Of a DNA stretch of 64,000 bases, positions 1-37,775 are shown one piece after another. Both the position numbers and the translations under genes were made by a program. The DNA lies in NCBI RefSeq assembly GCF_040054535.1, contig NC_090798.1:2298501-2362500 (forward strand). The letters run 5' to 3'. This DNA is from Antennarius striatus. Taxonomy: Eukaryota; Chordata; Actinopteri; Lophiiformes; Antennariidae. Every line of letters begins with the position of its first letter. The first letter of the stretch is position 1. Under the pieces are notes generated by a model. It saw only the letters and a list, made by a program, of their open reading frames with translations. It did no database searches and had not been told where the DNA came from.

Positions 1-65
1 GTAGCCTGCCTCACTTGTGTGCCAATTTTTGCAAAAACTTGTATGACAAAATTTGAGTCACTCAC

Positions 66-151
66 CAACGCCAAATGCTGTCACTGTGCAGGAGGAAATT
101 GACAGATGTACAGAAGACAATGATGAGCAGAAATCTTATCTTGCGATTCAT
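66..151 (-). CDS. gal3st3: Orphan first coding exon of a gal3st3-like gene (gene A, partial)
   Basis: On the minus strand this 86-nt exon starts with ATG (149-151) and reads M-N-R-K-I-R-F-L-L-I-I-V-F, a short basic cytosolic tail followed by a hydrophobic signal-anchor segment. It ends in S-I-W-R plus the first two bases of a Trp codon, followed by a GTGAGT donor at 60-65. Length, intron phase and the final R-W match the first exon of the complete gene at 7514-7599, and upstream there is a polypyrimidine tract ending CCCCCAG, as in the other copies. Its catalytic exon is not between here and the next gene, so it should lie left of position 1. There are no stops or frameshifts, so the exon looks usable. 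Assignment rests on the paralogues; an orphaned fragment is the alternative. Confidence 0.72.
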
Positions 152-889
152 CTCTATGTGTTTTAATGGAACTCTGCTGGGGGACAAGAAAATTCGGGGA
201 CCAAAGAGCACAGGAAATTTGGTAACAAAAATCAGTGACTTTATAAATTGCCAAGGAGTGGATTCTAAAATATATCATGTAGCTTCAGCTGAGAAAAGTC
301 ACTCACTGCATGCTATGGACTAAGTCAAACTACTGTAAATGAAACAATTACTCATTTGAAAAGATTCAAGTCCACAAAATTGAATTTTCTTCCAATTACT
401 TCCGTTAGTCGGAGAAATTTGGAGGAATTAATGATCGAAGTTCTAAAGCAAAGGCTTTTTGGTTTCCAATAGAGGATATTTGACTCTATAAAAAAATTCC
501 ACATTTTATGAGTGTTGAGTAATTGTCTTTTTTATGAGGACTAGGTCTCATTTAGCTTTTGGGAGGATGAGGAGGATGAAGGTTTTCTGTCTCTATCAAT
601 ATGTTTCAGAACAGAATGTAAGGAGTTGAGTTACCTGTTGTACTCGGCTGAGTCTTCCCTTGACTTTCACACCACCAGTTCTGAAGCAGTAAATCTTCAC
701 TCCGTTACCACACAATGGGATGGTGGAGCAACATCGACAACGGGCCAAGCAGTTCAGAGGATGATAGTTGAACTACACCGGCTCCACACATTTGTCCATT
801 CAGTGTATTCTCTTCAGTTCACCACATCATTTATTCTCAACACCAAACAAAGTTATTTACAATTCACCAAAAAACTTGACAAAGTAAGA

Positions 890-1206
890 AACAGTGGCGC
901 AGCGGGAAGCGCTGCTAACTCACAGCAAGAAGGTTCTGGATTCCTTACTTCCTTAATGCGTGAAGTTTTCTATGTTCTCTTCATGTCTGCGTGGGTTCTG
1001 TACAGGTTTTCCGGCTCCCTCCCACTAACAAAAGCATGCGCTTCAGGTTTATTGGCCGACCTCTAATTGCCCGTAGGAGTGAGTGTGTGTGTGCGTGGTT
1101 GTCTGACTTTGTGTGTGGCTCCGTGCGCACTGGCGTTGTGCCCGGAGTGTCCCCCGCCTCACGCCCTATGCCAGCTGGGATAGGCTCCAGCAACACCGAA
1201 CCGTGA
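890..1206 (+). repeat. L2/SINE-type fragment in copy A
   Basis: The stretch AGTGGCGCAGCGGGAAGCGCTG, then a GGTTCTGGATTCC segment, then CTTCAGGTTTATTGGCCG and CAGCTGGGATAGGCTCCAGCA, is the typical order of a teleost L2-linked SINE: tRNA-like head followed by a LINE-type tail. The copy at 8370-8500 is its duplicated, internally deleted counterpart. Confidence 0.65.
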
Positions 1207-1525
1207 CACCACAATTATCTGTCGTAAGACATGAAAACTCATCTTTTTTGTCTAGTCTTTCAGTCTGTCATCCTCAACGTTATAAGCTAACCTGCCATTT
1301 ACTGTGTGAAACTAGACTAAACCAGAATGATGAAAGGCATGAATAGTCCAAGTAATGTTTGACTGAAAAGGTGGAGCGTGAGAACGGCACATGTAATTAC
1401 ACATGAACAAAAGCGATGCTGCTAAACCACCTGGAAGGTAAGTGAACTAGAAATACTTGGCCCGCTCTTCGGAGGCTTACAAAAGTATTAAAATGATGGA
1501 TGACTCAAAGCAGGATTCACTAAAG

Positions 1526-35600: not shown

Positions 35601-35639
35601 ACACACACACACACACACACACACACACACACACACACA
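35601..35639. repeat. (AC)n microsatellite
   Basis: About 39 bases of AC lie roughly 150 bases upstream of the start codon of gal3st3-like gene E, within its presumed 5' intron. Confidence 0.95.
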
Positions 35640-35789
35640 GATATCATACTTGTGGTGGTTGAGGAAAAACGTTCCTTGGAAGTATAAATAGGTAGGTAAC
35701 TTTAGGACTTTTATCCATCCATACTGGTTTTAATTTTTGCCTGTGTTCTCTTTTGTCTACCTCACACAGTCCCACTGAAGCCCAACGAA

Positions 35790-37744
35790 ATGATTCAGAA
35801 GAAGATATTCCTGCTGATTATTGTCATCACTACTGTCAGTGTCCTGGTTCACCACGGGAATCTTGTGAGTTGGTGAGTGATAGGACACACTCACAGAAGT
35901 ATGAAACACGCCTGGTCGATTATCACACCTCAATTGTGCCTCAAGCGTCTATAAAGATTTTATATACTGTACTACATTAAGGGAGGGTTGCATACACCCC
36001 ATTTTATGTCATAGTTAAACAATCAAGTTAAAAGGCAGCCAAGAAAGAGTATTTGCAGTATTTGCTTTGAGGATGTTGATAGAGAAGTACAGAGAAGGCC
36101 AGAGGGAGCTGTATTGTGTTTTTGTAGATCTGGCAGAGAAGTATGTTAGAGCAGTGCAGTCCCACCTCCACCTTGAACTCCTCTGTCACACCTACAGTAC
36201 ACCTCACCACTGTCTTACAGTCCTCATACATGTCCTGCATCGCTCTAACATACTTCTCTGCCACTCCAGACTTCCTCATACAATACCACAGTTCCTCTCT
36301 GGGCACCCTGTCATCAGCTTTCTCCAGATCTACAAAAACACAATGCAGCTCCCTCTGGCCTTCTCTGTACTTCTCTATCAGCATCCTCAAAGCAAATACT
36401 GCATCTGTAGTACTCTGTTTTGGCATGAAACCATACTGCTAATGCTCTATTATCTTTTCTTCCAGGACCATGGATGCTTTCTATTTTGGTTGTTCTTCCT
36501 TTCCTTCCCACCCTGTCCTGGACCAGAAACCGAAGCACACCAATGTTGCCTTCCTCAAGACACACAAAACGGCCAGCAGCACCATGCAGAACCTCTTTTT
36601 CCGTTTTGCAGAACGCCACAACCTGACGGTGGCGTTGCCAATCCAGTCCTGTAGTCACCAGTTCTGCTACCCCAACTCCTTCAACACTCACTTCGTCCAC
36701 CCGCACACGATACCGCCGAATATCATCGCTAGTCATATGCGCTTCAACATAAAGGAGCTGCGGCGTCTGATGCCCAACGACACCATTTATATCACCATCC
36801 TGAGAGAACCCAGCTTCATGTTTGAGTCCGCATTCAATTACTACTTTAACTACTGTCATAGCTTCAGGAGGGTCCCCAATCGTTCCCTGGAGGCTTTCCT
36901 AGCAGACCCCTGGCGCTACTACCAACCCGATGAGAAAGACTCTATGATCGCACGCAACAACCTGGCGTTCGACTTCGGCAAAGACAAGGATCACCCAGCA
37001 ACAGATGTTAAGTTCGTACAAGACTATCTTGCAGAGGTGGAGCAGACCTTCTCCTTGGTGATGATTGCTGATTACTTTGACGAGTCGCTGGTTGTCCTTC
37101 GCCATCTCCTCTCCTGGGATCTGGACGACATTCTTTATCTTAAGCTCAACATGCGGAAGGAAGATTCTAAGCAGAAGCTGACCCCGGATCTTGTTTCAAA
37201 GATCCGTGCCTGGAATGCTTTAGACACGTATCTTTATGACTACTTCAATGCCTCTTTGTGGCACCAAATTGCAGCTCTGGGTCTGGGTTGCGTTGCAAAG
37301 GAGATACGAGAACTACGACAGGCCCAGGAGAGACTCATGAGAAGCTGTTTCAATGGACAGGTGCAGCTTCGCTCTTCCATGCAGATTAAAAACAAGAATC
37401 TCCGCCCTTGGCAGCCAAGAGGAACAGTTGACATTATGGGGTATGACCTTCCAGGAAATATCAGTCATGGGTTGTCAAGCCATGCCCAGGAACTCTGCCT
37501 CAAGCTTGTCATTCCTGAGATCCGGTATTCAAGGTTGCTCCTACATTCCCAATCAATGCGCTACTATCACAGACACCAACTCCGGACCACACAACAAACA
37601 GCAACTGTGCAAAAAGTTAGGTCTTTGCAAGTGAAACACGTTGAACTGCCCCCTGACCCCACTGCTCCTACAGCACAAAAAGGGTCCACCCCCCAAAAAA
37701 TGCATGATGAAACGCAAAGTCGGAACCCAAATTTAACGACTTAA
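35790..37744 (+). CDS. gal3st3: Galactose-3-O-sulfotransferase, GAL3ST3-like (gene E), two coding exons
   Basis: CDS is 35790-35872 joined to 36466-37744, 453 residues. Exon 1 reads M-I-Q-K-K then an Ile/Leu/Val-rich anchor (about 6-20), ending V-S-W with the Trp codon split by the intron (donor GTGAGT, acceptor CTTCCAG). The lumenal domain has the 5'-PAPS loop F-L-K-T-H-K-T-A-S-S-T (57-67), FAERHNLTVALP (75-86), the Cys-containing SCSHQFCYP, the 3'-PAPS stretch T-I-L-R-E-P-S (138-144), Y-F-D-E-S-L-V-V-L, and PWQPRGTVDIMGYDLPG. Of the copies here it is the closest to mammalian GAL3ST3. The hydrophilic, Thr/Gln/Lys-rich tail of about 60 residues is specific to this copy. An acceptor (CTCACACAG before 35771) implies an upstream non-coding exon; AATAAA at 37770-37775 follows the stop. 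Predicted role: Golgi 3-O-sulfation of galactose on N- or O-glycans. The intron contains an inverted LINE fragment. Confidence 0.93.
36054..36161 (+). repeat. Inverted LINE fragment, short arm, in intron of gene E
   Basis: It encodes L-I-E-K-Y-R-E-G-Q-R-E-L-Y-C-V-F-V-D-L, then jumps to AEKYVRA, a reverse-transcriptase segment with an internal loss of about 60 bases. It is the inverse of 36235-36403, so the pair can fold into a hairpin. Confidence 0.8.
36162..36426 (-). mobile_element. Non-LTR retrotransposon reverse-transcriptase fragment
   Basis: The minus strand reads from M-P-K-Q-S-T-T-D-A-V-F-A-L-R through VFVDLEKADDRVPREELW and GVAEKYVRAMQDMY to VTEEFKVEVGLH, a typical fingers/palm part of a fish LINE reverse transcriptase. 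D-D-R-V-P replaces the more usual Y-D-R-V-P. It is truncated at both ends and sits about 40 bases before the acceptor of the second exon of gene E. Confidence 0.88.
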
Positions 37745-37769
37745 ATCAAAACTCAGGCCTCCAAAACGG

Positions 37770-37775
37770 AATAAA
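37770..37775 (+). other. Polyadenylation signal for gal3st3-like gene E
   Basis: AATAAA begins 26 bases after the stop codon of the 35790-37744 gene. A second AATAAA-like site lies near 37.89 kb, so alternative 3' ends are possible. Confidence 0.45.

Follow-up and report, generated by a model that had tools for sequence, protein, structure and literature searches.

The 64-kb stretch of Antennarius striatus DNA analysed here (64,000 nucleotides of contig NC_090798.1; hereafter 'the window') contains what is likely a lineage-specific local cluster of Golgi sulfotransferase genes of the GAL3ST3 type, evolving by birth and death, in which one gene is conserved, other copies change faster and one is dead. 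We refer to the five loci of this cluster as genes A, B, C and D and the decayed copy. The cluster would have arisen by tandem duplication with an inverted step. C is the most constrained copy, the dN/dS of A (which forms an apparent tandem pair with D) and of B is twice that of C, and one copy is dead; the extra copies may matter more for dosage or tissue control than for any new chemistry. Galactose sulfate shapes mucus charge as well as the binding of lectins and microbes.

Three of the genes are complete, each with two coding exons and open frames: gene A on the minus strand at 4.6–7.6 kb, gene B on the plus strand at 13.5–14.8 kb, and gene C on the plus strand at 35.8–37.7 kb. The first coding exon, which encodes the membrane anchor and was located by structure reading together with profile search, lies at 7514..7599 (−) in A, 13501..13580 (+) in B and 35790..35872 (+) in C. 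The main coding exon, stop codon included, occupies 4620..5769 (−) in A (411 aa), 13697..14777 (+) in B (386 aa, with a tail shorter than that of C) and 36466..37744 (+) in C (453 aa, with a long C-terminal tail). Their introns (1744, 116 and 593 bases in A, B and C respectively) have GT..AG ends, are in phase 2 and follow directly after the anchor. Searching the window with the three long reading frames gave four main-exon matches, to which a profile search of the window added the first coding exons, that of D included. Each of the five loci was recovered in the profile search at E ≤ 0.0023 (the pseudogene also with weaker extra pieces), while elsewhere in the 64-kb window nothing rose above chance (best E 1.2; the reversed window, which sets the chance level, gave a best match of E 0.018). 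Thus the three complete genes of the preliminary description are borne out by GT..AG introns, open frames and PF06990 matches, and its orientations, two minus and three plus, hold when all five loci are counted. In all four genes from A to D an AG follows a pyrimidine-rich tract 20 to 25 bases upstream of the start codon, and so each probably has a non-coding exon farther upstream.

The main exons of A, B and C match PF06990 over most of their length (417.6 bits, E 6.5e-125; 436.4 bits, E 1.3e-130; and 466 bits, E 1.3e-139, respectively; cut-off 27 bits). All three contain a KTHKTA loop and a REP..MF[ED]S element, in agreement with the earlier statement that the intact copies keep the PAPS-binding motifs; the roles of the lysine loop and of the 3'-phosphate element with its serine are drawn by analogy with other sulfotransferase families (PMC11625862). 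A hydrophobic N-terminal stretch that follows basic residues (17-residue hydropathy 2.26–2.59 in A, B, C and D) is a predicted type II membrane anchor. We infer that A, B and C sulfate the 3-OH of terminal galactose, which each would do on glycans as a Golgi-anchored enzyme with PAPS as donor. Searches of wider collections added little: the prokaryote-minded NCBIfam returned nothing for A, B, C or the exon with a RIN1 domain described below, and the gene C frame had no match at E 0.1 among solved structures searched by sequence. Three heat shock protein chains (E 0.19–0.84) matched by the combined A, B and C profile among solved structures were taken as chance. Two short peptide patterns gave 91 pattern matches in IMG/VR and 92 in a prokaryote genome collection, with no relative confirmed in either and hence no outgroup.

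The best reading of the available comparisons is that A, B and C belong to the GAL3ST3 branch. We built trees from the three fish proteins and four human ones (GAL3ST1, 2, 3 and 4), the human sequences being provisional versions rather than database entries, and these trees are accordingly offered as a lead. Identity to the provisional GAL3ST3 is 48% for A, 48% for B and 52% for C, a modest level of around 50%, as against 35–40% to the provisional GAL3ST1, 2 and 4. With these references, two analyses separated A, B, C and GAL3ST3 from GAL3ST1, 2 and 4 at support values of 100/99 and 100/100, and grouped A, B and C apart from all four human proteins with 84/88 and 95.8/93. Among the four, the GAL3ST1 sequence could be gauged: all 16 residues named in PMC11500956 and PMC11500077 (Arg202 being taken from the latter) fit it in letter and number. 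The local expansion of GAL3ST3-like genes reported in the preliminary description therefore remains the best reading, and the scattering of copies over different old Gal3st subfamilies, which it had named as the contrary outcome, was not seen with these provisional human references.

Not all copies have survived. Between genes B and C, at 18743..19537 on the plus strand (ends approximate), lies a decayed copy with in-frame stops (one at 18962–18964), several frame changes and no counterpart of profile positions 157–223 in its middle part, and the pseudogene noted earlier is thereby confirmed; no first exon for it was found by profile search of the window. Gene B itself appears to have lost part of its end: DNA similarity between B and C continues 33 bases beyond the stop of B, and the translated match extends 14 codons past it, so that the short tail looks like a truncation.

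The proteins of the intact genes are 58–68% identical to each other, and their aligned coding bases differ pairwise at 21–29% of positions. Over 382 shared codons, the Nei–Gojobori method gave dN 0.305 and dS 0.632 for A/B, dN 0.253 and dS 0.662 for A/C, and dN 0.189 and dS 0.532 for B/C; two other methods put dS at 0.45 to 0.68. Synonymous divergence of 0.53–0.66 is unsaturated; barring a reset by gene conversion, it appears too small for duplications dating back to the separation of fish from land vertebrates. All three genes are under constraint, C the most. Per-branch dN/dS, a check proposed in the preliminary description, came out below 1 on each branch: 0.48 for A (95% resampling range 0.33–0.71), 0.48 for B (0.30–0.83) and 0.24 for C (0.15–0.43), with the B branch reaching 1 in six of 1000 resamplings. 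The dN on C was lower than that on A in 1000 of 1000 resamplings and lower than that on B in 998 of 1000; its dN/dS failed to fall below that of A in 31 of 1000 and below that of B in 54 of 1000. Because C combines the lowest dN with a long tail like that of the provisional GAL3ST3 and the closest resemblance to that protein, we take it as the copy in which the older function is probably preserved. Some gene conversion is hinted at by identity that varies along the genes: a test on runs of variable sites shared between copies gave p 0.0042 for A/B, 0.075 for B/C and 0.84 for A/C (three tests, uncorrected), and in B/C windows at alignment codons 121–180 the shared-residue codons that differ number 0 of 31 and 2 of 34.

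Diverged copies in a cluster would lend themselves to finding the residues that determine acceptor choice, and the preliminary description had suggested that its members diverged in substrate or Golgi placement, such that they would now act on different acceptors or at different Golgi sites. We consider such a functional split unlikely. Sixteen pocket positions are available for cerebroside sulfotransferase from docking to a modelled GAL3ST1 (PMC11500956 and PMC11500077), a list that may not suit GAL3ST3; A, B and C disagree at seven of these positions (88, 89, 113, 173, 177, 202 and 212, GAL3ST1 numbering), as against 193 of 384 columns overall; conversely, 9/16 are identical in the three proteins versus 191/384 overall (Fisher p 0.62). 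Across A, B and C, then, the listed pocket shows no excess of changes, and an altered specificity is not demonstrated. Relative to GAL3ST1, seven of the 16 carry the same residue in A, B and C alike; K82, H84, K85, H141 and Y176 are the same throughout the seven aligned proteins, and F170 and Y203 are likewise kept in the three fish copies. This likeness is set against an identity of 37–38% to the provisional GAL3ST1 and nine pocket positions at which one or more of the three copies depart from it. The higher dN/dS of A and B relative to C would suit a functional split, as would the differences in anchors and tails that the preliminary description had pointed out. These sequences do differ, but the anchors are all hydrophobic stretches of the same kind and the short tail of B looks like loss; dN/dS below 1 on every branch, together with a pocket no more variable than the rest of the protein, speaks against the proposed divergence.

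The same rate difference could instead mean that A and B are relaxed copies heading for loss beside a working gene C, an account that would also draw on the dead neighbouring copy and the shorter tail of B. We regard it as doubtful, since both retain complete frames, splice sites and the invariant residues of the pocket over pairwise dS of 0.53–0.66, an outcome that would be unlikely without selection.

GAL3ST3 is known as a single gene in mammals, and the preliminary description drew its contrast with mammals on that point. That contrast omits the mouse Gal3st2, Gal3st2b and Gal3st2c genes, a local triplication spanning ~110 kb that is described in PMC9971977, where human and mouse are given four distinct Gal3st types, GAL3ST3 among them. 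Local multiplication of a Gal3st gene is thus already known, and the present cluster, as it stands, is one more local duplication in a glycan-modifying family. It differs from the mouse case, as there described, in that the mouse copies are >97% identical and of GAL3ST2 type, whereas the A, B and C proteins are 58–68% identical, of GAL3ST3 type and placed in two orientations. With human GAL3ST3 the fish genes share PF06990 and the PAPS elements, and among the four provisional human paralogues it is the nearest to A, B and C; they differ from it in forming several local copies.

Among the matches listed from open-licence literature, no report of a GAL3ST3 cluster in fish was named; in the portions available, PMC9596333 names GAL3ST1 only among the family and PMC8789585 does not mention GAL3ST3 by that name. 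In arowana, gal3st3 was used as a control present in single copy (PMC4835728). In Asian seabass (PMC6211105) it was likewise a control, with a normal diploid number of copies, and is called single-exon there, in contrast to the two coding exons of A, B and C. Either those fish lack the cluster or the control is another locus. Because of these single-copy or single-exon controls, the true gal3st3 may lie elsewhere in the Antennarius striatus genome, with the present genes forming a side branch. A fuller version of that idea, which we think rather improbable, would have a fish-only side branch kept for a long time beside the true gal3st3 as a birth-and-death cluster, its members sulfating distinct glycans of mucins or surfaces; the pressure behind this might come from microbes with an affinity for terminal galactose or sialic acid. 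Goblet cells of zebrafish reportedly express gal3st3, at a higher level in a mutant (PMC12724568).

Could the cluster be another Gal3st subfamily under the wrong name, for instance GAL3ST2? The references being provisional, some room is left for this, but the identities and tree splits given above, and the fit of the provisional GAL3ST1 to all 16 published residues, make it very unlikely. A gene with RIN1-like and VPS9 domains, outside the cluster and with exons placed by domain matches (59791..62532, +), begins ~22 kb past gene C. Human RIN1 and GAL3ST3 both lie on 11q13, and the RIN1-like neighbour would fit that surrounding of GAL3ST3. NEU4 adjoins GAL3ST2 (PMC9971977) and would give a sialidase match, of which there was none in 110 of the 188 longer reading frames to the right of 37.7 kb. 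One frame each among these 110 was matched by TnsD, DUF4014 and MFS_2 (E 0.006–0.0075), which we took as chance. The RIN1-domain exon also resembled two PRDM9 chains along a stretch of 21 residues (E 0.00015 and 0.0007), a similarity taken as noise.

At the left edge of the window, the 'orphan first exon' of the preliminary description is better read as the start of a gene cut by the window, gene D. This exon (66..151, −) has an open frame and the donor GTGAGT, the same as in A, and an acceptor-like pyrimidine tract with AG stands before its start codon, again as in A; 76 of its 86 bases and 22 of 28 residues from whole codons are identical to gene A. It sits inside a duplicated block (1..2814, −) that matches 7449–8962 around the first coding exon of A in three pieces (84.7% over 1068, 84.0% over 319 and 78.2% over 133 positions) and has extra inserts at ~1019–1208 and 1524–2681; a fourth, short match of the D-block DNA (74%) lies elsewhere. 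The two blocks run in the same direction, 7.4 kb apart, and their match starts at base 1, and so the D block is cut by the window edge. Given a minus-strand exon at this position and an intron of A-like length, the main exon of D would lie to the left, beyond base 1. Thus D and A look like a tandem pair, and orphan status would be an effect of the window edge unless the DNA to its left shows otherwise. Uncollapsed haplotypes, as an assembly artefact, might be suspected from two blocks ~85% alike over >1 kb, but are extremely unlikely given coding differences of 21–29% among A, B and C and blocks that are ~15% different and carry different inserts.

Repeats of several kinds are found in and around these genes. 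The 1524–2681 insert, which the A block lacks, is by eye perhaps a DNA transposon, and an interspersed repeat (1014–1191 and 16303–16483, 86% identical) has one copy inserted in the D block and the other beyond the downstream end of gene B. Within the intron of gene C, at 36028–36438, lie two oppositely placed reverse transcriptase fragments (RVT_1, E 5.2e-08, minus-strand frame) that form an 80-base inverted repeat, 98% complementary (36054–36133 and 36324–36403). Similar stretches at 8997–9188 and 26571–26772 make up an inverted pair (75% identical over 207 positions), and long CA/TG dinucleotide arrays are present at 10740–10865, 17518–17618, 45581–45647 and 52298–52389.
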